Part shown: positions 447 through 62,012 of the stretch, one piece after another
Position numbering within the stretch: position 1 is the stretch's first letter
How the letters are laid out: each line of letters begins with the position of its first letter
Source: Demequina pelophila
GTDB lineage: Bacteria; Actinomycetota; Actinomycetes; Actinomycetales; Demequinaceae
DNA: 64,000 nt
Reading direction: 5' to 3'
Assembly (NCBI RefSeq): GCF_000971175.1
Contig: NZ_BBLY01000001.1
Location: 855,709-919,708 of the forward strand
Notes under the pieces: generated by a model
The model's database searches: none
The model's input: the letters and a program-made list of their open reading frames with translations, nothing else
What the model was told of the DNA's origin: nothing
Translations under genes and position numbers: made by a program

Positions 447-1892
447 CTACTCGACCGGAATCCCCAGCGCGAGCAGGTGCGTCTCCGCGATCGAGCCGTC
501 CTCGCGCGCGCGCACCTGCAGCACGGTGGTCGACGCGGGCGACGGCCAGATGGCGCCCCAGCCCGCGGGATCCATGTCCAGCGCCATGCCCACGATCGAC
601 TTGATCACCACGGCGTGCGCGACCAGCGCGACGCCGCGCGGCACGTCGCGACCGTCGACGCAGTGACGGGCGTGATCGGCGGCCACGTCGCCCACGAGCG
701 ACCAGCCCCGCTGCCCCACATCCTGAATGCGCTCGCCGCCGGGCGCCGCGATCTGGTTCGCGCGCCACCGGTGGATCGCGTCGCCGTCGCGCTCCGCGAT
801 CTCGGCGACGGTGAGCCCCTCCCACTCGCCGAACACGATCTCCCGCAGCCGCTCGTCCGTCTCGACGTGCGCGCCGAGGCGCCGCCCGATCGCGCCCGCG
901 GTCTCCTGCGTGCGCACGATCGGCGAGGCGAGCAGCCTCGTCACGTGCGGCAGGTGCTCCCACGTGCGCCGGCCCATGCGGTACAGCGCATCCGCCACCT
1001 TGGCGGCCTGGACCCGGCCCGCCGCGGACAGGCTCGGCCCCGGCACCCCTCCGCCGGACATCCGCTTCGCGGTGGTCATCTCCGTCACGCCGTGGCGCAC
1101 CAGCACCACGGTGAGCGGCGCGACCAGGTCCTCCTCGTTCGGGGAGAACGGGCTCTGCACCTTGGGATGGACCAGGGACGATGCCCCGGCCGGGTCGGTC
1201 GCGCCGTCCGGTGCGTCGTCGACGTCGGTCCCCTCCGGCAGGGGGTGGTCCTCGCGCTCGACGCGCGGCTCCACCTGCGTGTCGCTCGCGGGGGTCACGC
1301 CCTCGCCTCGCGCCGCGGCGAGTGCCGCGCGCACGCGGCTCGCGCCGGTGGGGTCGTGGCGCACGGGAGCCTCGTCGTCGCCCGCGCCGCCCGCCGCGCC
1401 GGCCGGCGTCTCACCGCCGGCGAGGCGCGAACCGCCCCCGGCCGCCGCATCGTCCCCGGGCAGGCGGTCGCGGCGGATGTCCTCCTCGCGCGTGTCCATC
1501 GCCTCGTTGGCGAGGCGGTCGGCGAGCTTGTTGCGCTCGCGCGGGATCCACGCGTACTCGACCTGCGCGCCGGCGACCAGCTGCTGGGCGCGGGCGGCGA
1601 GCGGCTTCATGTCGGGGTGCTTGACCTTCCAGCGGCCGGACATCTGCTCGACCACCAGCTTGGAGTCCATGCGCACGTCCAGGCGCGCGTCGGGGTCGAT
1701 CGCGCGCGCGGCCTCGAGCCCCGCGATGAGGCCGCGGTACTCGGCCACGTTGTTGGTGGCGTGGCCCACGTAGCCGGCCCGCTCCGCGAGCACCGCGCCC
1801 GTGGCGCCATCCTTCACGGCCGCGCCGAAGCCGGCCGGGCCGGGATTGCCGCGCGAACCGCCGTCCGCCTCGATGATGAGGGTCCGGGTCAC
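447..1892 (-). CDS. bifunctional RNase HI / histidine phosphatase (alpha-ribazole phosphatase-like)
   Basis: Two enzymes joined by a linker, 481 aa, as in M. tuberculosis Rv2228c. Residues 1-135 are RNase HI, which cuts the RNA strand of RNA-DNA hybrids; the four acidic catalytic residues appear to be D10, E51, D76 and D125. Residues about 140-255 are a low-complexity acidic/Gly/Ala linker. From about 260 there is a histidine phosphatase with LVRHG (phospho-His H267) and a downstream GEWEG segment; in relatives this half removes phosphate from alpha-ribazole phosphate or other small phosphoesters. The GTG start at 1892 overlaps the stop of the upstream gene (GTGA), which fixes it; an upstream ATG would intrude further. 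It is the last gene of a three-gene set with the zinc-ribbon and NIF3 genes. Confidence 0.9.
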   Translation of the reverse strand: MTRTLIIEADGGSRGNPGPAGFGAAVKDGATGAVLAERAGYVGHATNNVAEYRGLIAGLEAARAIDPDARLDVRMDSKLVVEQMSGRWKVKHPDMKPLAARAQQLVAGAQVEYAWIPRERNKLADRLANEAMDTREEDIRRDRLPGDDAAAGGGSRLAGGETPAGAAGGAGDDEAPVRHDPTGASRVRAALAAARGEGVTPASDTQVEPRVEREDHPLPEGTDVDDAPDGATDPAGASSLVHPKVQSPFSPNEEDLVAPLTVVLVRHGVTEMTTAKRMSGGGVPGPSLSAAGRVQAAKVADALYRMGRRTWEHLPHVTRLLASPIVRTQETAGAIGRRLGAHVETDERLREIVFGEWEGLTVAEIAERDGDAIHRWRANQIAAPGGERIQDVGQRGWSLVGDVAADHARHCVDGRDVPRGVALVAHAVVIKSIVGMALDMDPAGWGAIWPSPASTTVLQVRAREDGSIAETHLLALGIPVE

Positions 1893-2626
1893 GCCTTCGC
1901 CTCGCGGACGAGGATGCGGCCGCACTCCTCGCAGCGCACCACGTCGTCCGCGGGCCGCGACTGGATCGCCGCCAGGTCACCCGGGTTGAGAGGCATGTGG
2001 CAGCCCAGGCACTGGTTGCCCTGGAGGGCCGCGGCGCCCACGCCTCCGTTCTGGTCGCGCAGGCGCTCGTAGAGCGTCACCAGTGCGGCATCGAGGCCGT
2101 CGATCGCGCCCGCGCGCTCTCCCGTGATGTCCTCGAGCTCCCTGTCGATCTGCGCCCAGGCCGCGTCGCGCTCGGCGGACAGCTGGTCCACCTGCGCGCG
2201 GATCGCGTCGACCTGGCTCTGCGCGGACGCGAGGGCCGCCTCCGCGCCGTCGAGCGCCTCCATGGCCTCGAGCTCGATGGTCTCGAGGTCGCCCTGGCGG
2301 CGGGTGAGCACCTCGAGCTCCGCCTGGAGCGCCTGCAGGTCCTTCGCCGAGCCCTGGCCGGACTCGAGGCGCGCGGTGTCGCGGGCGGCGCGGGTGCGCA
2401 CGTTCTCCACGTCGTCCTCCGCCTTGGTCACGGCGCGGCGCAGGTCGGAGACCTCCGTGGCGCGCGCGACGCGCTCCTCGTCGAGGTCGGCCAGGCGCGC
2501 GGTGAGCTCCTCGATCTGCGCGAGCACCGGCATGTGGGTGCGGCGGTGCCGGGCCTGCTGGGCGCGCAGGTCCAGGTCCTGCACATCGAGAAGGCGGCGC
2601 TGATCGGCGGCGGGGGCAGTAGGCAT
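1889..2626 (-). CDS. zinc-ribbon coiled-coil protein (C4-type, Rv2229c-like)
   Basis: 245 aa. Residues about 15-180 are an almost unbroken charged heptad-like region expected to form a long antiparallel coiled coil. The C-terminal quarter carries two CxxC pairs (CLGC and CEEC) forming a zinc ribbon. The family is conserved in actinobacteria next to NIF3 and RNase H/phosphatase genes; its biochemical role is not established, though nucleic-acid or protein binding is usually assumed. The ATG at 2626 is close to the NIF3 gene upstream (16-bp gap), and its stop overlaps the next gene, so the three are probably one transcript. Confidence 0.88.
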   Translation of the reverse strand: MPTAPAADQRRLLDVQDLDLRAQQARHRRTHMPVLAQIEELTARLADLDEERVARATEVSDLRRAVTKAEDDVENVRTRAARDTARLESGQGSAKDLQALQAELEVLTRRQGDLETIELEAMEALDGAEAALASAQSQVDAIRAQVDQLSAERDAAWAQIDRELEDITGERAGAIDGLDAALVTLYERLRDQNGGVGAAALQGNQCLGCHMPLNPGDLAAIQSRPADDVVRCEECGRILVREAKA

Positions 2627-2642
2627 GAGGCTCCTTCCGCGC

Positions 2643-3455: not shown

Positions 3456-3465
3456 GGCGCCCAGG

Positions 3466-4317: not shown

Positions 4318-4444
4318 CGGTCGTCTCCCCTCGCCTGCCGCGGGCGCGACGCCCCCGCTGTGTCGAGGCTAGCGCGCGCCGGGGCGCGGTCCCGGAACGA
4401 CTGTCAGAGGGTCGCGAGACAGTGGAGACGTCGAAAGGAGCGAC

Positions 4445-4963
4445 ATGACCACCATCACCACTGACGCCCCCGCGCCGGGCACGGGCACCGTCCCGGTCGA
4501 GGACCTCGACCTGGAGACGATGCTCGAGCTCGATGACGCCTTGTCCGGGGACGATGCCTCGGCCGGGTTGGGCGAGGAGGTCGAGCGATGGCTGCGAGCC
4601 AGGCCTCAGCGCGGCGCGCACATCCGCTGGAAGCGCAGCTCCGTGGCTCGGGACGCGGTGCGCACCCGCGCGCAGCTGCAGGCCAAGGTGGCCACCCTGT
4701 CCGTCAAGGGCCAGTTCGGCGTCGCCGACCTCGCCGCACTGCCCGAGGTGTGGTGCCAGACCATGCGGGTGGACGGCGGGTACATCGTCGAGGTAAACGG
4801 TGTGCCCGGACCCGAGTGCTTCGCGCGCCGCGTCCACCGTGACGGCGACAGCGAGGACGACATCTTCCCCACCGCCCAGGACGCCGGCACCGCCATGTGG
4901 AAGTGGCTGCATGGGACACTCCCGGCAGGCATGGTGCTACGCCAGCTGAGCGAGGAGGACTGA
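4445..4963 (+). CDS. conserved-looking protein of unknown function
   Basis: 172 aa, soluble, acidic N-terminus (residues 1-45 rich in Asp/Glu and probably disordered), then a basic patch (HIRWKRSS, about 58-66) and a mixed alpha/beta C-terminal half with two tryptophans (MWKW near 149). No signal peptide or membrane segment. I do not recognise the family. A clear ribosome-binding site (AAAGGAG, 5 bases before ATG) supports the start. The next gene, an HD hydrolase, begins one base after its stop, so the two are almost certainly co-translated and may work together. Confidence 0.75.
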   Translation: MTTITTDAPAPGTGTVPVEDLDLETMLELDDALSGDDASAGLGEEVERWLRARPQRGAHIRWKRSSVARDAVRTRAQLQAKVATLSVKGQFGVADLAALPEVWCQTMRVDGGYIVEVNGVPGPECFARRVHRDGDSEDDIFPTAQDAGTAMWKWLHGTLPAGMVLRQLSEED

Positions 4964-4964
4964 C

Positions 4965-5482: not shown

Positions 5483-5496
5483 ACGGCGCTCGGGCG

Positions 5497-5733: not shown

Positions 5734-5770
5734 GGCTCTCTCCTTCGGTGGGTCGGTGTCGGGCGGCCCG

Positions 5771-6859: not shown

Positions 6860-6870
6860 CGTCCACCTCC

Positions 6871-6923: not shown

Positions 6924-6942
6924 CGAGCCGTAGGCTTGGCGC

Positions 6943-9458: not shown

Positions 9459-10172
9459 TCAGCCGCGAAGCACCGCGAGCGCCGCGGCCGCGAGCCCCGC
9501 GAGCGCCCAGCTGACCAGGCTGCCCACCAGGAACTCCTCCGCGGCCGCGCCGCGACGGCGGTCACCGGAGATCTCCGGGAAGCGCCCGATGCCCTTGGCC
9601 GCCATGAGGCCCACGATCACCGCCTGCGCACCCACGAGCGCGAGCGCGGCGATGAGCCAGCGCTCGAGCGGCCCGATGAACCGGCCGCCCTTGAGATGGG
9701 TGACCGGGGTCGATGCCTCGGCGGGGTCGTCCTGCACCGCGCCGGCTCCCACCACGCCGGCTCCCGCCGCACCGGCTTCCACCTCACCGCCGGCCACCGC
9801 CCCGGCCCTCACGAGCACGTCGCGGCAGACGTCGTTGGCGGCATGCGTGAGCAGCACGGCAAGAGCCGCCCCGGCGACCACGAGCGGGGCCTGACCCCGA
9901 GCATCGTCCACCAGGAGCAGCGCGCCCGTCGCGACGACGAGCACCACGGCGGCCACGTCCGCGCCGAATGCCCGGCGCACCAGGATCCATGCGGCGGTCA
10001 CGCAGGCGGCCACGCCGGCCCAGAACCACGCCACGTCGCCGAGCGCCACCGCCGCGACGAGGACGGCCGCGACCCACCCGCCGACCGCGAGCCCCGCACG
10101 GATCGACGTCCCGAGCCGCCACGTCACCAGGTCCGCGCCGGCGACCAGCGCGAGCAGCACCGCGGCGGTCAT
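9459..10172 (-). CDS. DUF3307 membrane protein
   Basis: 237 aa with about six transmembrane helices. The C-terminal third carries the family pattern: GRFIGPLERWLI, then AAKGIGRFPEI and a final helix after AEEFLVGSLVSW. A flexible Gly/Ala/Glu-rich segment (about 125-160) separates the two helical halves. The ATG at 10172 overlaps the stop of satD (ATGA), which fixes the start and shows translational coupling. DUF3307 proteins regularly accompany SatD proteins; their joint role is unknown. Confidence 0.8.
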   Translation of the reverse strand: MTAAVLLALVAGADLVTWRLGTSIRAGLAVGGWVAAVLVAAVALGDVAWFWAGVAACVTAAWILVRRAFGADVAAVVLVVATGALLLVDDARGQAPLVVAGAALAVLLTHAANDVCRDVLVRAGAVAGGEVEAGAAGAGVVGAGAVQDDPAEASTPVTHLKGGRFIGPLERWLIAALALVGAQAVIVGLMAAKGIGRFPEISGDRRRGAAAEEFLVGSLVSWALAGLAAAALAVLRG

Positions 10173-10810
10173 GCGGAATCCTCCGAACGCAGCACACCGG
10201 CCACCTGCTCCAGCGCCGCTCTCAGCGCGGCAGCCCCGGACCGGTGCGCGGCCTGCGACACGGCGCCCTGCGTGATCGACTCGTCGGCGGCGAGCTCCTG
10301 CTGGGACACGCCGCGCAGCAGCCCGGCAGCGATGCGGCGCTCGCGGGCCTTCATCCGCCCGACCACATGATCGCGGAGCAGCAGGAACGAGGAGGCCATG
10401 CCCGCATCGTCCCCCTCCCCTCCGACACACCACGACAGGACCGACCGCTCCCCCGCATCCTCGCGGCGATGCGCCTCCTGGATGGCCTCGCGGGCGCGCC
10501 ACCAGCCGGAGCCGTCCGAGATGTCGCCGTCGACCTCGACCACCTCGCCCAGGCCGATGCCGGAGCGGACCCGGATCTCCTCGGGCAGCAGCAGCGGCGC
10601 GAGGGTGGTGACGGCAAGCGCGTCGGCCAGCGAGGCGTAGACACCCTGGAACTCGTCGCCCACGGTGCCCGCGAGGGGGCGCGCCGGCGCATCGTCCAGG
10701 GTGGCCTCGGCGTCGGCGAAGGCGGCGAGGACCGCCCGCTGGGCGCCTGCACGGTCGGCGAGCGTGCGGGAGCCGACGATGTCGACGATGACGGCGGCGA
10801 CGTGCTCCAT
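10169..10810 (-). CDS. SatD-family protein
   Basis: 213 aa. The N-terminal ~125 residues look like a degenerate nucleotidyl-cyclase-type fold (AAVIVDIVGSRTLADR, then GDEFQGVYASLADAL and the segment RSGIGLGEV). The last 60 residues resemble a helix-turn-helix (QQELAADESITQGAVSQA), so the protein may bind DNA and control itself through the inverted repeat just upstream (10825-10847). Named after the Streptococcus satCDE genes; the molecular function is not established. Overlaps the DUF3307 gene by 4 bp. Confidence 0.8.
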   Translation of the reverse strand: MEHVAAVIVDIVGSRTLADRAGAQRAVLAAFADAEATLDDAPARPLAGTVGDEFQGVYASLADALAVTTLAPLLLPEEIRVRSGIGLGEVVEVDGDISDGSGWWRAREAIQEAHRREDAGERSVLSWCVGGEGDDAGMASSFLLLRDHVVGRMKARERRIAAGLLRGVSQQELAADESITQGAVSQAAHRSGAAALRAALEQVAGVLRSEDSA

Positions 10811-10847: not shown

Positions 10848-10991
10848 ATTTTTGCGGACGATGTGGGGGCGGACGATGTGGGGCGGAGAGTGTGGAGACG
10901 AGAGAGGTGGGGGGCGGACGATGCGACGGGACCTTCGTGGGTCCGGGCACCGGCCCCGGGACCGCCGAACGGCCCCGCCCCGGCCCTCGCC

Positions 10992-14946: not shown

Positions 14947-16140
14947 TCACGCGCGCGGCGCGTCCTCCTCGGTGGACGATGCATCGGTCGCCTCGGGCTC
15001 GTCTGTTGCCTCGGCATCGTCGGTGGACGATGCGTCGGTTGCCTCGGGCTCGTCGGTTGCCTCGGCATCGTCGGTGGACGATGCGTCGGCTGCCTCGGTC
15101 TCCGGGGCCGCCTCGGCCTCGTCGGCGACCTCGACCTCGGCCTCGTCATCCGCCGCGCCCTCCTCGCGCACGGTGCGCACGTCGACCTCGCGGGTGTCGT
15201 CGTCCAGGTCTCCCGACGCGGGCTCGACGACCGCATCGGCCGGCGGAACCGTCGCATCGTCCCAGGACGTGGTGGACGAGGCCTCGACGTCCGCGGCGAC
15301 GTGGCCGCGCGTGACGCCGGCCGCGACCGCGGCGGTGGAGATGGTGCCGGTGTGGAAGCGCGAGGCCTCCTCGGCGGCGCGACGCGCCTTGACGAACGAC
15401 GAGCGGACGGCGAACGCGCCCCACGCGGTGAGCAGGAGCAGGACGCCGAGCGCGATCCACAGGCCGATCAGCGTGTTAGTGGCCCAGGGCGACTCCGGCA
15501 TGAGCACGGCGTAGCCCTCGAACGCGCACGCGCCCTCGTCGCCGGTGACCGAGCCGAACAGGTGGTAGACGCCCGAGACCTCGAGCGACGTGCGGTCCTC
15601 GATCCACGTGAGAGCTCCCGCGACGTCGAGCGAGCCGGACAGCGCCTCGACGGGCTCCGCGCCCGTGACGGTGACCGTGCGGACCGGCACGTCGAAGCCC
15701 GCGAGGGTGAGCCCGGCCTGGCGCTCGGTCACGGCGATCGGGGTGGCGGCGGTGGCGCTCCACTGGACCGCCTCGTCCGCCGTGACGGTGAAGCGCGACA
15801 CGATCGACGTGTCCGCAGGCGTGGCGACCAGGCCGCCGGCGGTGGCCTGGAGGGTGCAGCCCTCGGAGACGGCACCGGTGCGGAACGTCTCCGGGATGCC
15901 CGTGAGGCCCACGCCGGTCAGGATGCCGGCGATCACGGCGACCGTGACGAAGCGCGCGCGGGCCGCGGACACCGAGCGGGTCAGCAGGCCGGCGGTCGCG
16001 AGGATGGTCGCGGCGAGGATGAGGAACACGGGGAGGCGGTCGGGCGGGACCATGCCTCCCTGCCACAGCAGGCCGAGCACCACGATCCCGAGGAGGAGTC
16101 CGAGCAGGGCTCCGGTGATCGGACGGGGTCGGGGTGTCAT
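14947..16140 (-). CDS. membrane protein with extracellular-type domain and acidic repeat tail
   Basis: 397 aa; family not recognised. Three helices at the N-terminus (about 8-28, 36-55, 64-84) are followed by a soluble domain of ~135 residues with two cysteines far apart (near 95 and 205) that could pair outside the cell. A fourth helix lies at about 222-245, then a basic stretch and a ~115-residue tail dominated by Asp, Glu, Ala, Ser and Thr. The tail ends in a 17-residue tandem repeat. GAGGAG before ATG at 16140 sets the start. The layout resembles actinobacterial sensor or stress membrane proteins, but I assign no function. Confidence 0.75.
   Translation of the reverse strand: MTPRPRPITGALLGLLLGIVVLGLLWQGGMVPPDRLPVFLILAATILATAGLLTRSVSAARARFVTVAVIAGILTGVGLTGIPETFRTGAVSEGCTLQATAGGLVATPADTSIVSRFTVTADEAVQWSATAATPIAVTERQAGLTLAGFDVPVRTVTVTGAEPVEALSGSLDVAGALTWIEDRTSLEVSGVYHLFGSVTGDEGACAFEGYAVLMPESPWATNTLIGLWIALGVLLLLTAWGAFAVRSSFVKARRAAEEASRFHTGTISTAAVAAGVTRGHVAADVEASSTTSWDDATVPPADAVVEPASGDLDDDTREVDVRTVREEGAADDEAEVEVADEAEAAPETEAADASSTDDAEATDEPEATDASSTDDAEATDEPEATDASSTEEDAPRA
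14969..15095 (-). repeat. 51-bp coding tandem repeat (about 2.5 copies)
   Basis: Copies at 14969-15019, 15020-15070 and a partial one from 15071. Each encodes 17 residues of the pattern DASSTDDAEATDEPEAT in the acidic tail of the gene at 14947-16140. The copies are nearly identical at the DNA level, so duplication is recent or kept uniform. Every copy contains GGACGATGC. Confidence 0.85.
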
Positions 16141-16297: not shown

Positions 16298-17467
16298 ATG
16301 GTCACCCCCGAGATGCGGGTCGAGACCCTGCGCCGCCTGCGCGGCGGCACGGGCCGGCTCGCCACCGCGGCGCTGAAGTCGCTCGACGCCGAGTTCCCCT
16401 GGTTCCGCCAGCTGCCCGCGCAGGAGCGCTCCTGGGTCGGGTCGGTCGCGCAGGCCGGCATCACGTCCTTCGTCGCGTGGTTCTCGGACCCGCACGCCCA
16501 CCACCGCGGCGCCCTCGAGGTGTTCGCGGCCGCCCCGCCCGAGCTCACCCGTGCGATCTCCCTCCAGCACACGCTCAGCATCGTCCGCACGGTTGTCACC
16601 GTGGTCGAGGACCACTCCGACGAGTTCGCCGCCCCCGGCTCGGAGGCCCACCTGCGCGAGGCGGTGCTGCGCTACTCCCGCGAGATCGCGTTCTCCGCGG
16701 CGGAGGTCTACGCGCGGGCCGCCGAATCCCGCGGCGCCTGGGACGCGCGGCTCGAGGCGCTCGTGGTGGACTCCCTGGTACGCGGCGAGGTGGGCGACGA
16801 TCTCCCCTCGCGCGCGGCGGCCCTGGGCTGGAAGCCCGGCCCCACGCTCGTCATGGTGGGCCGCACCGACGGTCCGCTGGGCGAGGTCCAGTCCGCGGAG
16901 CTGCGCCGCACCGTCCGCCGCGCCGCGCCGGGATCGCTCGTGGGCATCCATGGCGAGGATCTGGTCGTCATCGCCCGCTCGGATGCGGACCACGACCAGC
17001 TCGCGACGACGCTTCTGCCCTGCTTCGGCCCCGGTCCCGTGGTCACCGGGCCGCCGGCGGTCACGCTCGTCGAGGTCGCCCGCGCCACCCGCGCCGCCAT
17101 GGCCGGCGCCTCCGCGGCCCCCGCCTGGGCGCTCGCCCCCCGCCCCGTGAGCGCGGACGAGCTGCTGCCCGAGCGCGTCCTGGTGGGCGATGCGAGCGCC
17201 GCCGAGCGCCTGGTCGCCGTCGCCTACGACCCCATCGCGGCCGCGGGCGGCTCGCTCCAGGAGACCGTCGCGACGTTCCTCGACTCGGGGCGGTCGCTCG
17301 AACTGGCGGCCCGCACCATGTTCGTCCATGCCAACACGGTGCGCTACCGGCTCAAGAAGGTGGCGGAGATGACCGGGTGGGACGTGCTCAGCACCCGCGA
17401 CGCGCACGTGCTGCAGTTCGCCTTCGCGCTCGGTCGCCTGCGCGACGCCGACCACTCCCCTTTGTAG
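16298..17467 (+). CDS. fasR: PucR-type regulator of fatty-acid synthesis (FasR)
   Basis: 389 aa. A long ligand-sensing region is followed by the C-terminal PucR helix-turn-helix (ARTMFVHANTVRYRLKKVAE, about 340-360), which reads DNA. Its place directly before fabD-fabH-acpP-fabF matches S. coelicolor FasR (SCO2386) and M. tuberculosis Rv2242; the Streptomyces protein activates that operon. The target site probably lies in the 78 bp between its stop and fabD, but I cannot point to a sure box. ATG at 16298 is chosen by family length; the ribosome-binding site is weak. Confidence 0.87.
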   Translation: MVTPEMRVETLRRLRGGTGRLATAALKSLDAEFPWFRQLPAQERSWVGSVAQAGITSFVAWFSDPHAHHRGALEVFAAAPPELTRAISLQHTLSIVRTVVTVVEDHSDEFAAPGSEAHLREAVLRYSREIAFSAAEVYARAAESRGAWDARLEALVVDSLVRGEVGDDLPSRAAALGWKPGPTLVMVGRTDGPLGEVQSAELRRTVRRAAPGSLVGIHGEDLVVIARSDADHDQLATTLLPCFGPGPVVTGPPAVTLVEVARATRAAMAGASAAPAWALAPRPVSADELLPERVLVGDASAAERLVAVAYDPIAAAGGSLQETVATFLDSGRSLELAARTMFVHANTVRYRLKKVAEMTGWDVLSTRDAHVLQFAFALGRLRDADHSPL

Positions 17468-24387: not shown

Positions 24388-25245
24388 GTGACCGCCGTCC
24401 GGCGCTGGGAGCGGGCCGACGTCGCCGCCGCCTGGCCCGTGCCGGGCGCGGCGGACGACAAGTACTCGCGCGGCGTCGTCGGCGTGGTCGCCGGCTCGGA
24501 GGCCTACCCGGGCGCCGCGGCGCTCGTGGTCTCGGGCGCGATCCGGGCCGGCGCGGGCATGGTGCGCTACGTGGGGCCGGAGCGTGCGCAGGATCTGGTG
24601 CTCGCGCATCGTCCCGAGGCGGTGGTCCACCATCCCGTCGACGCCGCGGAGCGGCTGCCCCGCGCGCAGGCCTGGGTGGTCGGCTCCGGGGTGGCCGACT
24701 ACCCCGAGCAGGACGCGGCGATCGGCGCGGTCATCGCGGAGTCCGCGCCCATGGTGGCCGATGCGGGGGCCCTGGAGACCGTCACCCGTGCCCGGGCGGC
24801 GGGGGCCCGGGCGATCGGGCCGGACCGGGTGCTGCTGACGCCGCACGCCGGCGAGCTCCTGCGCACGCTCGAGGCGCTGCGCCACGATGTGACCGCGGCG
24901 GACCTCGAGCGCGACCGCGTGGGCCACGCGCGGCTGCTCGCGGAGACCGCGCGGGCGACGGTGCTGCTCAAGGGCGCGGTGACGCTGATCGTCTCCCCCG
25001 GCGGCGGCGTGATCGAATTGCCGCTCGCGCCCGCCTGGCTCGCGACCGCCGGGGCCGGCGACGTGCTCGCCGGCATCGCGGGAGCCCTGCTCGCGGCGGG
25101 CCTGCCCGCGGCGGAGGCGGGCGCATGCGCGGCGTGGATGCATGCGAGGGCCGCGGAGAGCGCGTCCGCGGGCGGCCCGATCGCCGCCCTGGACGTCGCC
25201 TCCGCGCTGCCGGCCGTGGTCGCGGAACTGCTCAGTTCGTCGTAG
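24388..25245 (+). CDS. nnrD: ADP-dependent NAD(P)H-hydrate dehydratase (YjeF C-terminal domain)
   Basis: 285 aa ribokinase-fold enzyme that uses ADP to dehydrate S-NAD(P)HX. Signatures: GVVGVVAGSEAYPGAA near the N-terminus, TPHAGELLRT in the middle, and the nucleotide-binding/catalytic loop WLATAGAGDVLAGIAGALL (about 212-230). GTG start at 24388. Works with NnrE encoded at 22491; the split and separated arrangement is unusual compared with the fused protein. Confidence 0.92.
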   Translation: MTAVRRWERADVAAAWPVPGAADDKYSRGVVGVVAGSEAYPGAAALVVSGAIRAGAGMVRYVGPERAQDLVLAHRPEAVVHHPVDAAERLPRAQAWVVGSGVADYPEQDAAIGAVIAESAPMVADAGALETVTRARAAGARAIGPDRVLLTPHAGELLRTLEALRHDVTAADLERDRVGHARLLAETARATVLLKGAVTLIVSPGGGVIELPLAPAWLATAGAGDVLAGIAGALLAAGLPAAEAGACAAWMHARAAESASAGGPIAALDVASALPAVVAELLSSS

Positions 25246-38238: not shown

Positions 38239-40170
38239 CTACGTACCAGGCGCGGTCGGCGCCAGCGGGATCATCACCCGCATCTGCGCCGGCCCCCTTG
38301 CACCCCACCGGTGATACGGCACCAGGGGGAGCTCGAAAGCCCGAAGTTCCGCGGCGGCAGGCGCCTCTGCGGTGAAGGGCAGCACACCGGCATCGTCCGG
38401 GGCCGATGCGGGGGCCAGCCCCGCAGCGATCGCGCCGTCGCCGTGGGCGCGCAAGGGCGCGGCCGCGTCGAGCAGCACGTCCTCGAACGCGACTCCGTCG
38501 GGCAGGTCGGTCGACTCGACGCACAACACCAGCGGTCCGCGCGTCACGGCGACCGTGCCGCGCTGCGCGTCGATCCTGGAGTCCGGCCATGCGAGGCGCG
38601 GCGACAGGTCGAGGTCGAGCACCACGCGGTCACCCGGGGCGAACGCTCGCGTCACCTCCCACCAGCCGGGCGCGAGCGCAACCTCACCGGCGGGAGACGT
38701 GCCGCGCGCATCGGCCGCCCATCCGGGCACCCTGAGCCGGAGCGCGACCTCTCGCGCGGGGGCCCGCTCGACGGTCACCTCGACGCGCCCCTCCACCGGA
38801 TAGGCGGTGTCGACCCGGACCTCAAACGTCTCGCCGCCCAGGTCCGCCGCGATCCGGCCGGCGCCGTACAGCGACAGCGTCAACGCATCGGCGTCTACGA
38901 AGGCCGCGTACGCCTGCGTGGAGGCGAAGGTGCGGGACACGTTCGTGGGACAGCACGACACATCAAACCAGGGCGCGCGCACGCCGCCCTCCGCGCGCAT
39001 GTTGACGCCCTCGCCCGCGTACTCGTGGCCGGCGACGCGCACGTGCAGGGGGTTCGCGTAGAAGAACGCCCGCCCGTCCTCGCTGGGGCCGGTCGCCACC
39101 ACGTTGTGCAGCGTGCGCTCGATGAGGTCCGCGTACTTCGCCTCGCCGGTGGCCAGCAGGAGTCGCCACGAGAACATCACGGAGGCGATGCCGGCGCAGG
39201 TCTCGCAGTACGCCCGGTCCGGCGGCAACTCCCAGTCCTCGCCGAAGCCCTCGTCCTGGTGCCGCGACCCCATGCCACCGGTGACAAACGTGCGGCGCGC
39301 GACCGTGCGGTCCCACTGGCGGCGCAACGCGCCCAACAGGTCGTCGTCGCCGGTGTCCACGGCCACGTCGACGGCACCCGCGGACAGGTACAGCGCGCGT
39401 ACGGCGTGGCCGCGCAGTACGTCAGCCTCGCGGATGGGGGTGTCGTCCTGGAAGTACTCGGCGGACAGCAGCACGCGCACGGGCAGCGTGCCGCGGCCGC
39501 GCCGCTCGAGGAAGATGCGCGCCTGCTCGCGGTAGCGCTCCTCCCCCGTGGCCCGCGCGAACTCGGCGAGCGCCACCTCGATCTCGGGATGCCCGCACAG
39601 CGTCGCGCGGGCGCCCTCGCCGAACTCGCGGCACACGTGGTCGGCGGCGCGACGCGCCACCTGGACCAGCGCATCGTCGCCGTAAGTGCGCAGCCGCGCA
39701 ACGGCAGCCTGGATGAGGTGGCCCATGTTGTAGAGCTCGTGACCCTCCGACATGTTCGAGTAGCGCGGAGGCAGCCCCGGGTGGCCGAAGGCCGTGCCCT
39801 GGTAGCCGTCCGGGGCCTGCGCGGCGCCGATGCGGGCCACCAGGGAGTCGTACAGCGCCTGCAGGCGCGGGTTCGCGCGGCGCCCGAGTTCCCACGCAAG
39901 CCCCTCGAGCAGCTTGTAGACCTCGGAGTCCGCGAACTCCCATCCGGCGCGCTCGACGGTGGACTCGCCGCGCGCCACGCGGTCGAAGTTCTCCAGCCAG
40001 CCCAGGCGCTCCATCCACGAGGCGCAGTGCTCGAACGTGTGAGCGGCGTTGGTCTCCTGACGACGCCCCCAGAAGCCCTCGGGGTCCCAGGCGGCCTCAC
40101 CGATCTGCAGGCCTCGGCGGGGCCCGGGGGCGTCGACGGGGACGCGCGGGTGCTTGGTCTCGGTGCTCAC
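38239..40170 (-). CDS. GH127 beta-L-arabinofuranosidase
   Basis: 643 aa cytosolic enzyme releasing L-arabinofuranose from beta-linked arabino-oligosaccharides. Residues match the Bifidobacterium HypBA1 active site: acid/base E307, zinc ligands E323, C325, C406 and C407 (in CETCAG and SCCPTN), with C406 the probable nucleophile. An (alpha/alpha)6 barrel is followed by beta-sandwich domains. GTG start 2 bp after the permease stop, with AAGGA upstream. Its place after a LacI-controlled sugar ABC importer points to intracellular breakdown of imported arabinan or hydroxyproline-rich glycan pieces. Confidence 0.93.
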   Translation of the reverse strand: MSTETKHPRVPVDAPGPRRGLQIGEAAWDPEGFWGRRQETNAAHTFEHCASWMERLGWLENFDRVARGESTVERAGWEFADSEVYKLLEGLAWELGRRANPRLQALYDSLVARIGAAQAPDGYQGTAFGHPGLPPRYSNMSEGHELYNMGHLIQAAVARLRTYGDDALVQVARRAADHVCREFGEGARATLCGHPEIEVALAEFARATGEERYREQARIFLERRGRGTLPVRVLLSAEYFQDDTPIREADVLRGHAVRALYLSAGAVDVAVDTGDDDLLGALRRQWDRTVARRTFVTGGMGSRHQDEGFGEDWELPPDRAYCETCAGIASVMFSWRLLLATGEAKYADLIERTLHNVVATGPSEDGRAFFYANPLHVRVAGHEYAGEGVNMRAEGGVRAPWFDVSCCPTNVSRTFASTQAYAAFVDADALTLSLYGAGRIAADLGGETFEVRVDTAYPVEGRVEVTVERAPAREVALRLRVPGWAADARGTSPAGEVALAPGWWEVTRAFAPGDRVVLDLDLSPRLAWPDSRIDAQRGTVAVTRGPLVLCVESTDLPDGVAFEDVLLDAAAPLRAHGDGAIAAGLAPASAPDDAGVLPFTAEAPAAAELRAFELPLVPYHRWGARGPAQMRVMIPLAPTAPGT

Positions 40171-45066: not shown

Positions 45067-45181
45067 GCGACCCCTCGCGAGGTCGGCGGCCATTCTAGCG
45101 GGGACAATCGCATCGTCCCCCGACCGGGACCTCCGGGTGGTCATCGGGACCGCGATCGTCCTGTAGAGTATTCCAGCGCGA

Positions 45182-47319: not shown

Positions 47320-48125
47320 ACGAACCTCCGGCGTAGGTACTGGGAGAGCTGGTCGATGGCGAGCACCACGATGAACATCGCGATGACGATCGCGGACACG
47401 TTCTCGTAGTTGAAGCGGGAGAACTGCACGTTGATGACCTGGCCGATGCCGCCGCCGCCCGCGAGTCCGATGACCACGGACGCGCGGATGTTGAGCTCGA
47501 AGATGTACAGGCAGTAGGAGAGGTAGTTGGGCAGGATCTGCGGGAGCACCGCCCAGCGGGCGCGCGCGAGCGTGCCGGCGCCGCCCGCATCGGCCGCCTC
47601 GAGGGGTCCCGCGTCGACGGCGTCGATGGTCTCGGAGGTGAGCTTGGCCGCGATGCCGATGTTGAACATGATCAGCGCGAGGATTCCCGCGAGCGACCCG
47701 ATGCTCACCAGGGCCACGAAGATGAGCACGTACGCCACGTCCGGCAGCGAGCGGATGACGGAGAGCACGATCTTGACCGCGCGGTACAGCCACGGCGACC
47801 GGTTGGTGACCCGCGACGCCATGAACGCGAACACCAGGCCCACGACCACGCCGACCGCGCTTGCGACCACCGCGATCGCGACGGTCTCGACCCATGCGTC
47901 CCACACCCGGAAGATGTAGCCCCAGTTGGGCTGGAGGAACCGCTCGATGATCTGCCAGCCGTTCGCGAAGTTGGTGAACAGCGGCGCCAGGGTGAAGCTG
48001 ATCTGATGGCCCGCCCACAGCGTGAACGCGAGCGCGGCCAGGAGGCCGCCCACCAGGGTGGGCGACGGACGCGGCTTGCGCGGGCGCGCGGGCGCCACGG
48101 CGGTGGACGATGCGGTGGTCGTCAT
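47316..48125 (-). CDS. phnE: phosphonate-type ABC transporter permease 1
   Basis: 269 aa, six helices; contact loop EAADAGGAGTLARARWAVLP. The ATG overlaps the phnC stop (ATGA), and its own stop overlaps the second permease. The N-terminal Ser/Thr/Ala stretch contains one copy of the dispersed word GGACGATGC (48105-48113, opposite strand). Confidence 0.9.
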   Translation of the reverse strand: MTTTASSTAVAPARPRKPRPSPTLVGGLLAALAFTLWAGHQISFTLAPLFTNFANGWQIIERFLQPNWGYIFRVWDAWVETVAIAVVASAVGVVVGLVFAFMASRVTNRSPWLYRAVKIVLSVIRSLPDVAYVLIFVALVSIGSLAGILALIMFNIGIAAKLTSETIDAVDAGPLEAADAGGAGTLARARWAVLPQILPNYLSYCLYIFELNIRASVVIGLAGGGGIGQVINVQFSRFNYENVSAIVIAMFIVVLAIDQLSQYLRRRFV

Positions 48126-48889
48126 GCGCCGGGAAGGACGTCGTCCGCGGTGAGCGAGCGGCCGTAGATCTGCTCGAACACCGCATCGTCCGCCTCGGCG
48201 CCCGTGCCGTCGAAGACGACCTGTCCGGCGCGCATGCCGATGACGCGCTGGCCGAACTGGCGGGCGAGGTCGAGGAAGTGCAGGTTGACGAGCGTGGTGA
48301 TGGACAGCTCGCGGTTGATGCGCTGCAGGTCCTTCATCACCATCTGGGCGGTCGGCGGGTCGAGGGACGCGACGGGCTCGTCCGCGAGCATGACCGTGGG
48401 GTCCTGCGCGAGGGCGCGAGCGATCGCGACGCGCTGCTGCTGGCCGCCGGAGAGGTGCGAGGCGCGGGTCCAGGCCTTCTCCACGATGCCCACCCGCTCG
48501 AGCGACCGGTAGGCGATCTCCTTCTCCTCCTTGGTCCAGGCGCCCACGAGCGAGCGGTACGCAGGGACGTCGTGGAGCTGGCCCATGATGACGTTGTTCA
48601 TCACGGAGGTGCGCTTGACCAGGTTGAATGACTGGAAGATCATCCCGATGCCCGAGCGCAGCCGGCGGAGCTCCCGCTTCGACGCGCCGGAGACCTCCTG
48701 ACCGTCGACGGTCAGCGATCCGGACGTGATGGGCACCAGCCCGTTGATGGCCCGGATCAGGGTGGACTTGCCTGCACCCGACAGGCCCACGACCACGACG
48801 AACTGGCCGTCGGGGATGGTGAGGTTCACGCCGTCGAGGCCCACGACCCCGTTGGGGTAGCGGACGGTGACGTCCTTCAGTTCGATCAT
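48122..48889 (-). CDS. phnC: phosphonate-type ABC transporter ATP-binding protein
   Basis: 255 aa ATPase. Walker A GLSGAGKST (about 36-44), signature LSGGQQQRVAIARA, Walker B VMLADEP. GAGGTGG upstream selects ATG at 48889 over an upstream start at 48910. Energises uptake of the ligand caught by the PhnD protein encoded upstream, beyond a hairpin. Confidence 0.93.
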   Translation of the reverse strand: MIELKDVTVRYPNGVVGLDGVNLTIPDGQFVVVVGLSGAGKSTLIRAINGLVPITSGSLTVDGQEVSGASKRELRRLRSGIGMIFQSFNLVKRTSVMNNVIMGQLHDVPAYRSLVGAWTKEEKEIAYRSLERVGIVEKAWTRASHLSGGQQQRVAIARALAQDPTVMLADEPVASLDPPTAQMVMKDLQRINRELSITTLVNLHFLDLARQFGQRVIGMRAGQVVFDGTGAEADDAVFEQIYGRSLTADDVLPGA

Positions 48890-53717: not shown

Positions 53718-54713
53718 ATGACCGAGACCCCCGCCGCAGCATCGTCCCCCGCCAAGGACCGCACCCCGGGCCGCCTGATCCTCAACGCGATCCGCGGCGG
53801 CCTCATCGGCACCGCCGAGACCGTCCCGGGCGTCTCCGGCGGCACGGTCGCGCTCATGACGGGCGTCTACGAGACCATCCTCACCTCCGCGGGCCACCTC
53901 ATCGGCGGCATCCGCATCGCGGTGACGGACGGCGTGCGCGGGCGCGGCCTGGACCGGGCGCGGCCGGACCTGGCGCGCGTGCGCTGGGGCGTGCTGCTCC
54001 CCCTGGGCGTGGGCATGGTCGCGGCGCTGCTGGTCATGGCCCACTTCATGGAGGGTCTGGTCGAGGACCACCCGGAGACGATGCGCGGCCTGTTCCTGGG
54101 CCTGGTGCTCGCCTCGCTCGCGGTGCCGTTCCGCCTGGCCGCGCACTCCCCCGCCGCCGGGCGCCCGCGCGGGCGCTGGGGCGGCCTCGACGTGCTGGTC
54201 GCGGCGGTCGCCGCGGCCGCCACCGCGACCGTCCTGAGCCTCTCGGGCGCCTCGCTCGAGCCCACGCCCGCCGTGCTGGTGCCGGCGGCCGCGATCGCGG
54301 TGAGCGCCCTGGTGCTGCCGGGCCTGTCGGGTTCGTTCCTGCTGCTCACCATGGGCCTGTACGCGCCCACGCTCGCCGCGGTCAACGACCGCGACCTGGG
54401 CTATCTCGCCTGGTTCGCCCTGGGCGCGGCCATCGGCCTGGTCACCATCGTCAAGCTTCTCCAGTGGCTGCTCGAGCACCACCGCCGCCTCACCCTGGTG
54501 ATTCTCACCGGCGTGATGGCGGGCTCGCTGCGCGCGCTGTGGCCCTGGCAGGACGAGTCGCGCGCGCTGCTCGCGCCGCACGACCCGGTGATCTGGCCCG
54601 TCGTCGCCTTCGTGATCGGCGTCCTCGTCGTGGTCGCGGTGCTGGTGCTCGAGCGCCGCTTCGTGCCCGCCGAGCCGACCGCCCCCGCTCAGTCGGAGGA
54701 CGCCACTGCCTGA
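53718..54713 (+). CDS. DUF368 protein, undecaprenyl-phosphate translocase type (PopT-like)
   Basis: 331 aa with about eight helices. The family signature is GLIGTAETVPGVSGGTVALMTG near residues 24-45, mirrored by a second glycine/proline-rich re-entrant segment SALVLPGLSGSFLLLTMG (about 197-214). DUF368 proteins return undecaprenyl phosphate across the membrane for cell-wall synthesis. Its last 25 bp overlap the convergent dgt gene. Confidence 0.88.
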   Translation: MTETPAAASSPAKDRTPGRLILNAIRGGLIGTAETVPGVSGGTVALMTGVYETILTSAGHLIGGIRIAVTDGVRGRGLDRARPDLARVRWGVLLPLGVGMVAALLVMAHFMEGLVEDHPETMRGLFLGLVLASLAVPFRLAAHSPAAGRPRGRWGGLDVLVAAVAAAATATVLSLSGASLEPTPAVLVPAAAIAVSALVLPGLSGSFLLLTMGLYAPTLAAVNDRDLGYLAWFALGAAIGLVTIVKLLQWLLEHHRRLTLVILTGVMAGSLRALWPWQDESRALLAPHDPVIWPVVAFVIGVLVVVAVLVLERRFVPAEPTAPAQSEDATA

Positions 54714-55978
54714 TCGCGGCGGCGCACCACGTAGCGGTGGTGCCAGTCGTACGCCGACTTGTCGGTGAGCGACGCGATCTGGTCGATCACCACCCGGGTG
54801 CGCGCAGCATCGTCCCCCGCCTCCCGGTGCATGGCCGCGAAGTGCGGCTCGAGCGCTTCGTCCCCCAGCTCCACCAGGGCCCCGACCAGCTCGGTCAGGC
54901 GCTCGCGCTGCTGGCGGTACGCGGGCTTGCGCTCGCGCGGCGCCATGAGGAAGTGCACGGCGATGCCCTTGAGCATGAGGATCTCCTGGGCCGTGGCCTC
55001 GGGGATCACCAGGCGCGCGTGGTGGCGGGTGAGGGGGCCGTCGCCGAACTCCGCGCGCGTGGCCGTCGCGACGTCCCCCACGAAGCGGCCGATGCACTGG
55101 CTGGTCATGTCCTTGAGCGCCGCGAGCGCGCGGTGCGAGCCGTCGTAGTCGTCCATCCAGGTGGGCTCGCGCTGGAGCCGGCGCAGCGCCTCGACCAGCG
55201 CGTCCTCGTCCCCGCGGCCGTACCACTGGCGCGCGTGGGCGGCGATCTCGCGGGCGCGGCCCTCGTCGCGCAACACCCCCAGCGACACGGTGTTGTGGAC
55301 CACGGAGTCCTCCATGTCGTGCACCGAGTACGCGATGTCGTCCGCCAGGTCCATCACCTGCGCCTCGAAGCTCTGGGCGCGCTCCTGCGCCCCCTCGCGG
55401 AGCCACCGGAACACCGGGAGGTCGTCCTCGTAGACGCCGAACTTCCGGGTGGGGCTGCCGTCGGGGCGGGTGGGCGTCGCGTCCTCCGTCCACGGGTACT
55501 TGCACGCCGCGTCGAGGACCGCGCGCGTGAGGTTGAGGCCCACGCTCTCCCCCGTCTCGGGGTGGACGGACTTGGGCTCGAGCCGGGAGACGATGCGCAG
55601 GGTCTGGGCGTTGCCCTCGAACCCGCCGATGTCCCGGGCCGCCGCGTCGAGGGCCTTCTCCCCGTTGTGGCCGAAGGGCGGGTGGCCCAGGTCGTGCGCC
55701 AGGCACGCCGCGTCCACCACGTCCGGGTCGCAGCCCAGCGTCTTGCCCAGCGCGCGGCCCACCTGCGCGACCTCGAGCGTGTGCGTGAGCCGCGTGCGCA
55801 CGAAGTCGCCGGTGCCGGCGCCCAGGATCTGGGTCTTGGCGCCCAGCCGGCGCAGCGCGCTCGAGTGGACGATGCGCGCGCGGTCCCGCTCGAAGGGCGT
55901 GCGGTGCTGCTGCTTGGGCGGCTCCTGGACGAAGCGCTCCCGGTCCACCTGCTCGTATCCGCGGGGTGTGGTGTCCAC
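54689..55978 (-). CDS. dgt: deoxyguanosine triphosphate triphosphohydrolase-like protein
   Basis: 429 aa HD-domain enzyme cutting dNTPs to deoxynucleoside and triphosphate. Metal residues: H in RLTHTLEV, the HD pair in CLAHDLGHPPFGHNG, and D in DLADDIAYSVHD. GTG start at 55978. Type-2 (non-E. coli) subgroup by length. Often placed just before dnaG in actinobacteria; here small membrane genes and a DUF368 gene lie between. Tail overlaps the DUF368 gene. Confidence 0.93.
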   Translation of the reverse strand: MDTTPRGYEQVDRERFVQEPPKQQHRTPFERDRARIVHSSALRRLGAKTQILGAGTGDFVRTRLTHTLEVAQVGRALGKTLGCDPDVVDAACLAHDLGHPPFGHNGEKALDAAARDIGGFEGNAQTLRIVSRLEPKSVHPETGESVGLNLTRAVLDAACKYPWTEDATPTRPDGSPTRKFGVYEDDLPVFRWLREGAQERAQSFEAQVMDLADDIAYSVHDMEDSVVHNTVSLGVLRDEGRAREIAAHARQWYGRGDEDALVEALRRLQREPTWMDDYDGSHRALAALKDMTSQCIGRFVGDVATATRAEFGDGPLTRHHARLVIPEATAQEILMLKGIAVHFLMAPRERKPAYRQQRERLTELVGALVELGDEALEPHFAAMHREAGDDAARTRVVIDQIASLTDKSAYDWHHRYVVRRRDQAVASSD

Positions 55979-56088
55979 TCCTCGACTCTACCTGGGCCGA
56001 CGCACCCGACCCGGGACCTCGTCGCGGCCGCGCCCCGGGGGACGATGCGGCGGTCGCCCCGGCCTGCCCGCCCCGCTACGGTGGGGCG

Positions 56089-56661: not shown

Positions 56662-56698
56662 GAGTCCGGTCCGTGGGGGCCGGTTCCGGGGTGGGCCG

Positions 56699-58192: not shown

Positions 58193-59437
58193 TCAGCGCG
58201 GCCCGTCGACGGACCCGTCCGTGGGGTCCGCGTCCGCGCCCGCCTCGGCCGCCAAGGCGGGCGCCCCGCCCGGGGCGACCCCCGCATCGTCCCTGGTCGC
58301 GATCGTGGAACCGGCGACGGCGTCGTGCCGCCAGCCCACGATCATCGCGCCGATGGCCGTGGTGAGCGGCACCGCGAGCACCAGACCGATCGACCCGACC
58401 AGCGTGCGCACCACCTCGCCGGCGATCTCCGATGAGGTCAGGGCCGCCCCGATCGGGTTGTCGTAGACCGCGATGAGCATGATGAGCGGTAGCGAGGCGC
58501 CCACGTACGCGAACGCGATCGTGTACACGGTCGACGCGATGTGGTCGCGGCCGATGCGCATGCCGCGGGTGAACAGCTGCCACGGGCCCAGGTCGGGGCG
58601 CACGGTGCCCAGCTCCCACACGGCCGAGGCCTGGGTGATGGTGACGTCGTTGAGGACGCCCAGGCCCGCGATCATGAGCCCGCACAGCGCGAGGCCCTGC
58701 AGCGACAGGCGGCCCTCGACGAAGGCGAGGTTGATCTCCGCCTCGTCGGGCACGCCGGGGATGCGCGCGGCGGCCACGGCCCAGGTGCCCAGCGCCGCGG
58801 TGAGCACGAGTCCCGCGATGGTGCCCAGGTACGCCGTGGTGGTGCGCGCGTTGGGCCCGTGCGCGATGTAGAGCAGCACGAAGAGCGCGCCGGCGCTGGT
58901 GACCATGCCGACGATGGGCGGGCTCGCGCCCTCGAGCAGCGCGGGCACGGTGTAGAACGCGACGATGCCGAAGGCGAGCAGGAGCCCCAGCAGCGCGCCC
59001 AGGCCGCGCCACCAGGCGACGGCGAGGACGAGCACCACGTAGACGATCAGCAGCGCGAGCAGGGGGAAGGCGCGGTCGAGGTCCGCGAACACGACCGTGC
59101 CGTCCTCGAGCGCCACCGCGTTGACGTGGTCGCCCACGCGCAGCTCGAAGGCGGGGATGCCGATGGGCTGCATGGGCTGCTCGCCCTCGTAACCCGCGGT
59201 CGAGACGTCGATGACCGAGGCGCCGGTCTCCGCGTCGACCTCGACGACGACGCCGTCGAGGTGGACGGCGTCCTCGTAGAGGTACGACTCGGAGCCCAGC
59301 CGGTCGAGGCTGCTGGGCCACGTGACGATCGCGCCCGCGACCACGGCCGCGAGCACGCCGACCACCAGCGCCCACAGGAGCCGGGTGGTGCCGGCGGAGG
59401 CGCGGGGCCGGACGTCGTGCGAGTGGCCCGCACCCAT
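58193..59437 (-). CDS. YibE/F family membrane protein
   Basis: 414 aa with one N-terminal helix, an extracytoplasmic beta-rich domain (about 45-125), then about seven helices. Family pieces: FPLLALLIVYVVLVLAVAW, the LAHGPNARTTTAYLGT-like loop (YIAHGPNARTTTAYLG), and GLGVLNDVTITQASAVWEL. Function unknown, though transport has been suggested. Begins 3 bp after the glyS stop and is likely co-transcribed with it. Confidence 0.9.
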   Translation of the reverse strand: MGAGHSHDVRPRASAGTTRLLWALVVGVLAAVVAGAIVTWPSSLDRLGSESYLYEDAVHLDGVVVEVDAETGASVIDVSTAGYEGEQPMQPIGIPAFELRVGDHVNAVALEDGTVVFADLDRAFPLLALLIVYVVLVLAVAWWRGLGALLGLLLAFGIVAFYTVPALLEGASPPIVGMVTSAGALFVLLYIAHGPNARTTTAYLGTIAGLVLTAALGTWAVAAARIPGVPDEAEINLAFVEGRLSLQGLALCGLMIAGLGVLNDVTITQASAVWELGTVRPDLGPWQLFTRGMRIGRDHIASTVYTIAFAYVGASLPLIMLIAVYDNPIGAALTSSEIAGEVVRTLVGSIGLVLAVPLTTAIGAMIVGWRHDAVAGSTIATRDDAGVAPGGAPALAAEAGADADPTDGSVDGPR

Positions 59438-59440
59438 GCG

Positions 59441-60826: not shown

Positions 60827-60978
60827 GTGGTGCTCCTTGGGCGAGGTGTGCTTCGAAACGAGGGGTCCGGGGTGCTCGGGCAAGTCTAGCCGCGCGCCGC
60901 CCGCGCGCTCCGCCGCGATCCCGGTGTGCGTGCGAGCGCCACGGACCACCGGGAACAGCCGCGGGACCTTCGTCGTTC

Positions 60979-60993
60979 TGCGAATGATTATCA
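60979..60993 (+). promoter_or_regulatory. Zur box upstream of znuA
   Basis: TGCGAATGATTATCA matches the actinobacterial Zur pattern TGANAATGATTNTCA at all but one fixed position. It lies 20 bp upstream of the znuA start, where a bound Zur would block transcription when zinc is sufficient. Confidence 0.85.
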
Positions 60994-61013
60994 CTAGGCG
61001 TAAGGTTGACCCC

Positions 61014-62012
61014 ATGAAGATCCACCAGTTCGCCGCCGGCGCCGCGTTCGCCGGCGCCGCCGCACTCGCACTTGCCGCCTGCACCCCCGAGGAGGGCTCG
61101 CTCGCCTCGGCCGTCGAGAGCGCCGCCTCGTCGGACGATGCGGGCCTCACCATCGCCGCAGCGTTCTACCCCCTCGAGTACGTCGCGAACGCCGTGGCCG
61201 GCGACGCCGCCGCGGTCGTGGGTCTCACCCAGCCCGGCGTCGAGCCGCACGACGCGGAACTCTCCCCCGCCGCGGTGCGCGAGCTCGGCTCGGCCGACCT
61301 GGTCCTGTACCTGAGCGAGTTCTCCGCGGCGATCGACGATGCGATCGTCACCACCGGCGCACCCTCGCTGGACGTGGCCGACGTCGTGGCCCTGCACCCG
61401 TACGGCCACGACCACGGCGACGAGGAGGACCACGCCGACGAGGACCACGCCGACGAGGACGCGCACGACGAGGACGCGCACGACGACCACGACCACGGCG
61501 ACACCGACCCGCACTTCTGGCTCGACCCGGACCTGTTCGCGGAGTACGCGCACGCCGTCGCGGAGCAGCTCGGCGAGCTCGACCCCGACAACGCCGCCGC
61601 CTACGAGACCAACGCGCAGGCCTTCGAGGCCCAGCTGACCGCGCTCGACGAGGAGTACGCGACCGGACTCGCCCAGTGCGAGCGCGACACGATCGTGGTC
61701 GCGCACGAGGCCTTCGGCTACCTCACCGAGCGCTACGGCCTCCAGCAGGAGGGCTTCGCCGGAGTGAGCCCGGACCAGGAGCCCTCGCCGGCCCGCCTCC
61801 TCCAGATCAAGGAGATCATCACCGAGACCGGCGCCACCGTGATCTTCACCGAGGACAAGGTGTCCTCGCGCGTCGCCGAGGCGATCGCCGAGGACGTGGG
61901 CGTCGAGACCCGGGTGCTCAACCCGGCCGAGACCGTCACGGACGGCGAGGATTACGCTTCCGTCATGGCCACGAACCTCGCAGAACTCAGGATCGCGCTG
62001 GGCTGTGCCTGA
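61014..62012 (+). CDS. znuA: zinc-binding lipoprotein of the ZnuABC importer
   Basis: 332 aa. Lipobox LAAC (C23), an acidic linker, then a cluster A-I metal-binding domain. Zinc ligands by pattern: H79 (EPHDAELSP), H167 (DPHFWL) and the His of [10 protein letters not shown] His/Asp/Glu-rich loop (about 128-163) with repeats of HADED and DAHDE would collect zinc, the hallmark of zinc rather than manganese importers. Preceded by a Zur box and followed by znuC with an 8-bp overlap. Confidence 0.94.

Follow-up and report, generated by a model that had tools for sequence, protein, structure and literature searches.

A dispersed nine-base word as the probable core of a DNA uptake system in Demequina

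The 64,000-nucleotide stretch of Demequina pelophila analyzed here (contig NZ_BBLY01000001.1, positions 855,709 to 919,708; hereafter the window, its first letter being position 1) contains 26 exact copies of the nine-base word GGACGATGC, which raises the question of what keeps a single short word so frequent on both strands of an actinobacterial chromosome. A first-pass annotation of the window had likened the word to DNA uptake sequences or to the HIP1 word of cyanobacteria. Our analysis, which was extended to 44 Demequina genomes, supports the former half of this proposal, and we consider it probable (roughly 0.8) that GGACGATGC represents the core of an uptake system of the type known from the DNA uptake sequences (DUS) of Neisseriaceae and the uptake signal sequences (USS) of Pasteurellaceae. 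This reading is supported by the density and strand symmetry of the word, its independence from codon use, the presence of related words that follow the phylogeny, and the presence of pilus and ComEA/ComEC genes. The HIP1 half was not supported: while HIP1 is likewise a very abundant short word of coding and intergenic DNA, it is a palindromic octamer, whereas GGACGATGC is not self-complementary.

Abundance and sequence context of the word

The copies within the window extend from 1176 to 61141, with 11 on the plus and 15 on the minus strand, confirming the count of the first-pass annotation. Dinucleotide shuffles of the window yielded a mean of 1.76 copies and 7 at most, and under a third-order Markov model GGACGATGC ranks first by z among the 9-mers of the window. 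In 5-kb bins, lower GC content is accompanied by only slightly fewer sites. Based on our own gene calls, 3 of the 26 copies are intergenic, and those within genes include the sense frame DDA as well as the antisense frames ASS, IV, and HR, as had been described before. The same holds for the three copies carried by a 51-bp tandem repeat (14969-15125) and for znuA (61014-62012, PF01297 match), in which two of the three GAT codons are located within GACGATGC. The individual copies are as follows:

1176..1184, plus strand, coding, antisense frame (ASS)
1447..1455, minus strand, coding, sense (DDA)
4549..4557, plus strand, coding, sense
9901..9909, minus strand, coding, sense
10404..10412, minus strand, coding, sense
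10689..10697, minus strand, coding, sense
10916..10924, plus strand, intergenic
14974..14982, plus strand, coding, antisense, in the 51-bp tandem repeat
15025..15033, plus strand, coding, antisense, in the 51-bp tandem repeat
15076..15084, plus strand, coding, antisense, in the 51-bp tandem repeat
15254..15262, minus strand, coding, sense
16578..16586, minus strand, coding, antisense (IV)
24606..24614, minus strand, coding, antisense (HR)
27887..27895, minus strand, coding, antisense
29199..29207, plus strand, coding, sense
30510..30518, minus strand, coding, antisense
38390..38398, minus strand, coding, sense
45110..45118, minus strand, intergenic, between tRNA-Met and tRNA-Asn
48105..48113, plus strand, coding, antisense, convergent with the copy at 48183..48191
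48183..48191, minus strand, coding, sense, convergent with the copy at 48105..48113
53739..53747, minus strand, coding, antisense
54807..54815, minus strand, coding, sense
55867..55875, plus strand, coding, antisense
56040..56048, plus strand, intergenic
58284..58292, minus strand, coding, sense
61133..61141, plus strand, coding, sense, in znuA

The tandem repeat comprises 3.1 copies of its 51-bp unit, and the 397-aa protein that contains it has no Pfam match at an E-value of 1e-5. Separately, ARAGORN called a tRNA with the four-base anticodon cccg at 62978-63065, within an ABC-3 permease gene, which is probably a false call.

The genome to which the window belongs (G000; 2.68 Mb in 11 contigs) contains 1,294 copies, 641 forward and 653 reverse, corresponding to one per 2.1 kb, compared to 13 copies (4 + 9) of the reversed word as a control. 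The influence of codon use was analyzed in a 492-kb sample of G000 (484 kb including the window and 8 kb of the pil region), for which a simple codon-score caller, written for this analysis, called 459 genes. Here, 170 copies are coding, 69 are intergenic, and 1 straddles both, with a threefold higher density in intergenic (1.19 per kb) than in coding DNA (0.39 per kb). The coding copies are distributed almost equally between sense (83) and antisense (87) orientation, and reading frames that demand rare codons are little used.

It had been cautioned in the first-pass annotation that a preference for GAT before codons starting with GC could account for part of the excess, and codon-preserving shuffles had been proposed as a check. 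Synonymous-codon shuffles within genes (n = 60) resulted in 24.3 coding copies (standard deviation 3.9, largest 37). In 60 runs of a codon-pair Markov model, the number was 30.5 (standard deviation 5.8, largest 43). Codon preference therefore explains about 24 to 30 of the 170 observed coding copies, and neither null reproduces the remainder. Under both, no 9-mer reaches a higher z than GGACGATGC, so the word shows the enrichment at the DNA level, independent of codon and strand, that characterizes DUS and USS.

The context of the word is conserved to a lesser degree than the core. Across 231 contexts, with positions given relative to the core's first base, weaker preferences were found for C at -4, for G at -2 and -1, and for G at +9, +12, +13, and +16, extending about ten bases past the core, and the intergenic sites yield an extended consensus of about CCgGGGACGATGCGcGGGCCGGG. 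This flank conservation is present in intergenic and sense sites as well as in both main antisense classes, with G at +12 or +13 being kept among sense sites and among those of either main antisense class. Furthermore, a second form of the word, GGCCGATGC, is fourfold enriched in G000 and has a flank much like that of GGACGATGC.

Dialects across the genus and words beyond it

The aceE gene of the window has its nearest named match in an uncultured Demequina MAG (88% identity), consistent with the genus. Counts of GGACGATGC over the 44 Demequina genomes are bimodal, with 929-1,864 copies in 16 genomes and 49-275 in the other 28. Most of the latter enrich a related word instead, i.e., GGCCGATGC, GCCCGACGCT or, more weakly, GCCGACGC. 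Placed in register, all dialect words fit the pattern [GC][AC]CGA[TC]GC, and CGAYGC is the part common to all of them. More than 900 copies of GGCCGATGC were found in 12 genomes, with the highest counts given by G015 (2,018), G060 (1,807), G064 (1,732), and G023 (1,687), and counts of GCCGATGCC are consistent with those of GGCCGATGC for its strongest users. The word AGCGTCGGS (complement of SCCGACGCT) occurs 1,424 times in G009, 713 times in G003, 530 times in G012, and 410 times in G032, compared to 105-203 copies of the reversed control in these genomes. Other Demequina words also have, in part, the G at +12/+13/+16: some downstream G positions are common to GGACGATGC sites, to those of G009, and to those of genomes that use GGCCGATGC strongly (the flank subgroups of GGCCGATGC users were named from samples of 7.6-100 kb), and they were not clearly seen around the sites of G003 and G018.

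The distribution of the words was compared with a LeuS tree of 36 genomes, derived from 41 stretches and with seven labels assigned. Outside this tree are G007, G019, G020, and G023, whose stretches gave no LeuS match, G060, which was too short, and G005, G028, and G030, for which there was no stretch. G029 entered the tree labelled as "none" and G065 without a label; whole-genome counts of GGCCGATGC (1,237 and 925, respectively) later placed both with the users of that word. The dialect labels require 11 changes on the tree, compared to 20.1 after shuffling. Thus, the comparison with related genomes that the first-pass annotation had suggested revealed sister species with related words that follow the phylogeny around a constant inner core, as is the case for DUS and USS dialects. 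GGACGATGC itself requires 3 changes, with G004 and G063 grouping with G012, which uses another word, and with the two genomes without a clear word (G001 and G027); therefore, the word has been gained, lost, or switched repeatedly.

Individual sites are conserved in accordance with word use. Between genomes using the same word, GGACGATGC sites were conserved in 188 of 283 cases at 85-90% identity and in 138 of 318 at 80-85% identity, compared to 1,839 of 4,507 and 2,328 of 7,509 random 9-mers, respectively. In genomes using another word, conservation was below that of random 9-mers, with 19/286 versus 2,081/8,018 at 80-85% identity and 12/33 versus 229/558 at 85-90%. Pooled over 80-90% identity, same-word comparisons showed an identical GGACGATGC in 326 of 601 cases and other-word comparisons in 31 of 319; these comparisons are not independent of each other, as related genomes recur. 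Eleven control words, several of them with too few cases, gave no comparable contrast (e.g., GGTCGATGC with 49/191 versus 36/131), and two of them lean in the same direction as GGACGATGC (GGACCATGC with 26/70 versus 16/67; GCGATGACG with 28/98 versus 0/19). In other-word genomes, GGCCGATGC was found 46 times at the orthologous place of a GGACGATGC site.

Outside the genus, a survey of 79 further named aceE loci (4.8-22.8 kb each) revealed two dispersed word candidates, ACGCCGAGA and CACCGGCAC. The former, with 171 copies (control 27) dispersed on both strands of the 3.5 Mb of Oceanitalea stevensii (L058), has too few copies for an uptake sequence and is far below DUS density. CACCGGCAC has 14 dispersed copies in 22.7 kb of a Micromonospora sp. 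locus (L098), where 1.8 are expected. No word was found in the 20 kb read from G046, which belongs to another family of the order. In G037, from the same order and again another family, GGACGCCGT was spotted in 20 kb and occurs 839 times in the whole genome (173 reversed), compared to 161 copies in G000; it is possibly another lineage's word or a result of codon use.

Predicted uptake machinery and a candidate receptor

ComEC was identified in 43 of the 44 Demequina genomes, the lone miss being a genome that is 85% complete. ComEA, with SLBB and HHH_3 domains, is encoded before ComEC in G000, and each of the 41 ComEC stretches that were analyzed has matches to it, so that the search for these genes, which had likewise been recommended, was positive for both. 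T2SSE-family ATPases are present in 44/44 genomes, and clustered matches to pilB, pilT, pilC, and pilA in 20 of the 20 genomes looked at. The pil locus of G000, between aroE and aroC, has the order pilB-pilT-pilC-pilA, three minor-pilin-like genes, and pilD-pilM-pilN-pilO; aroE, aroC, pilC, pilN, pilO, pilW, and pilX, as well as the metE and acetyltransferase genes mentioned below, were named by eye or synteny. Demequina therefore harbors the combination of type IV pilus and ComEC/ComEA genes found with DUS and USS. The pilin-cassette end of the G000 operon (L013:15001-20000) has a GC content of 0.646 compared to a mean of 0.722 and is devoid of GGACGATGC, which gives it the look of a block that was exchanged; the cassettes of different species are strongly dissimilar.

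A lead to the protein that may read the word came from prepilin leaders, for which 13 genomes were searched; in 11 of them, exactly one such leader was found outside the pil operon. The corresponding stand-alone pilin (L225:10562-10984 in G000) has the same neighbors in all 11 loci, an acetyltransferase-like and a metE-like gene, and the eleven proteins have a common C-terminal domain with an invariant Cys, an HP.G motif, and a final Cys. In a comparison with solved structures, only the pilin N-terminus aligned at an E-value below 0.1. In Neisseria, the gene for ComP lies apart from the main pilus cluster. ComP, the DNA receptor of that genus, is a minor pilin.

The stand-alone pilin is thus a candidate receptor for which the evidence is mixed. 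Its tree, which comprises 23 of 30 loci (7 were dropped by the extraction rule), shows partial clustering of the dialects, with 7 changes compared to a mean of 11.8 after shuffling, and both GGACGATGC and GGCCGATGC users are split. Moreover, in four GGACGATGC genomes (G011, G020, G026, and G061) the best match to the stand-alone pilin profile, among the matches listed, is the operon PilA. Both the incomplete clustering and these matches argue against the candidate. Among the matches listed for G010, G012, G015, G023, and G036, the operon PilA matches the profile over nearly its full length, which suggests exchange or duplication between the operon PilA and stand-alone pilin genes.

A probable uptake word weighed against known systems and intracellular words

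If GGACGATGC is an uptake word, a type IV pilus would carry a receptor that prefers DNA bearing it, in its extended form of about CCgGGGACGATGCGcGGGCCGGG, ComEA and ComEC would pass one strand inwards, and recombination would return word-bearing self DNA to chromosomes. Copies would consequently build up and be retained where coding allows, and sister species would shift the word into dialects that retain the common core. The word, its density, dialects, conservation pattern, and independence from codon use are shown here, as are the genes; competence of the cells, preferential uptake of DNA containing GGACGATGC, and the identity of the protein that reads it are inferred.

The DUS of Neisseriaceae are similar in that a word of 9-12 bases is present in hundreds to thousands of copies, that its dialects follow the phylogeny with a constant inner core, and that type IV pili occur together with ComEC (PMC3630211, PMC12616744); eight dialects, congruent with the core-genome tree, are described (PMC3630211). 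The 1,294 copies in G000 are within that range. The Demequina word is, however, unrelated to them, and its host is an actinobacterium. The USS of Pasteurellaceae resemble it in combining a 9-base core with weaker conserved positions downstream and in the use of more than one word within a lineage, with two types in the family (PMC12616744). Yet, the Demequina core is unrelated to AAGTGCGGT, its flank is G+C-rich instead of A+T-rich, and lineage and envelope are different. A 2025 statement limits the known cases of such systems to these two families. Among actinobacteria, transformation of Micrococcus luteus similarly needs comEA, comEC, and a pilus, although Flp/Tad pili are used there and the accessible part of the report does not mention an uptake word (PMC6370729). 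Nor is such a word described for any actinobacterium in the accessible parts of PMC6370729 and PMC8339730.

Several observations weigh against an uptake function. The spacing of GGACGATGC is near random (coefficient of variation 1.06), although pairs less than 100 bp apart are in excess (24 compared to about 12 expected). In G000, 10 of these 24 pairs are convergent, 4 of them less than 30 bp apart and hairpin-capable, whereas none of 8 close pairs is convergent in 13 other GGACGATGC genomes; for other words, 4/5 (G018), 2/9 (four GGCCGATGC genomes), and 1/2 (G009) are. Convergent pairs, which are frequent in Neisseria and Pasteurellaceae and act as terminators in DUS and USS systems, thus do not appear to be a general feature in Demequina. 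Only 5 of the 27 one-mismatch neighbors of GGACGATGC reach at least 1.4-fold over expectation, and Haemophilus has more enriched neighbors than this. At 75-80% identity, sites in same-word genomes are conserved no better (32/137) than random 9-mers (1,482/6,812). Exceptions to the dialect pattern are G001 and G027, for which no clear word was found in 140 kb and 70 kb, respectively, despite ComEC and pilB/pilT; both have mild excesses of some dialect words. Furthermore, the minor-pilin cassettes, located between pilA and pilD, are divergent and come in kinds that vary across dialects and not with the word; with G000-like cassettes (PilV, PilW, and PilX matches) in 6 of 20 loci over three words, the cassette is a doubtful candidate for the dialect determinant. 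Finally, no report of transformation in Demequina was found in the literature, in a search whose scope excluded most subscription papers and all preprints. Within the same scope no report of an uptake word in Actinobacteria was found, and a search on GGACGATGC itself returned no bacterial-uptake title among the papers listed.

The main rivals of the uptake reading are intracellular words. The strongest of them, though unlikely, is a Chi-like or other recombination-directing word that is read by an intracellular helicase-nuclease. Like Chi, GGACGATGC is short, non-palindromic, and over-represented, and it is conserved in relatives using the same word. Chi-like and KOPS-like words are, however, expected to be oriented. 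In G026 (a single contig, 20 stretches), 72 copies are on the G-rich strand and 91 on the other (p = 0.16), so that no preference for a replication strand is seen. On this result and on the 83/87 distribution over gene sense, a strand-directing word of the Chi or KOPS type was rejected; the threefold intergenic excess and the use of several words within a genus are also unlike Chi. Marginally less likely is a methyltransferase target or other HIP1-like mark that is kept by repair or modification. Such a mark would fit a word that is enriched irrespective of strand, within genes as well as between them, but GGACGATGC is not palindromic, and weaker positions reaching about ten bases beyond the core are unusual for a methylase site.

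We consider a small dispersed repeat, or a site of an abundant chromosome-organizing protein, to be more doubtful still. The intergenic copies, with their approximately 20 weakly conserved bases, and the convergent pairs would fit, whereas 170 of the 240 sampled copies lie within genes and have mainly 9 fixed bases in common, and other words replace GGACGATGC within the genus. Since the contexts have only the core and weak flanks in common, an origin of the copies from a tandem or mobile repeat was rejected. Lastly, a by-product of codon or codon-pair preference, which would fit the use of frames that spare rare codons, is extremely improbable and, at the strength tested, refuted by the shuffles, by the dense intergenic copies, and by the near-equal sense and antisense use.

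The uptake reading also invites a wider proposal, which we advance tentatively and with less than even confidence: self-DNA recognition may have arisen in the Gram-positive Demequina independently of Neisseriaceae and Pasteurellaceae, the stand-alone pilin may read the word and diverge with the dialect, and further actinobacterial families may follow with other words. If GGACGATGC is indeed an uptake word, it would represent a third, independent case of word-based self-recognition, in a Gram-positive lineage, and would imply that this kind of self-recognition arises repeatedly in evolution and needs no outer membrane. The several dialects within one genus provide a test bed for the joint change of receptor and word, and a transformation protocol with word-bearing DNA would open Demequina to genetics.

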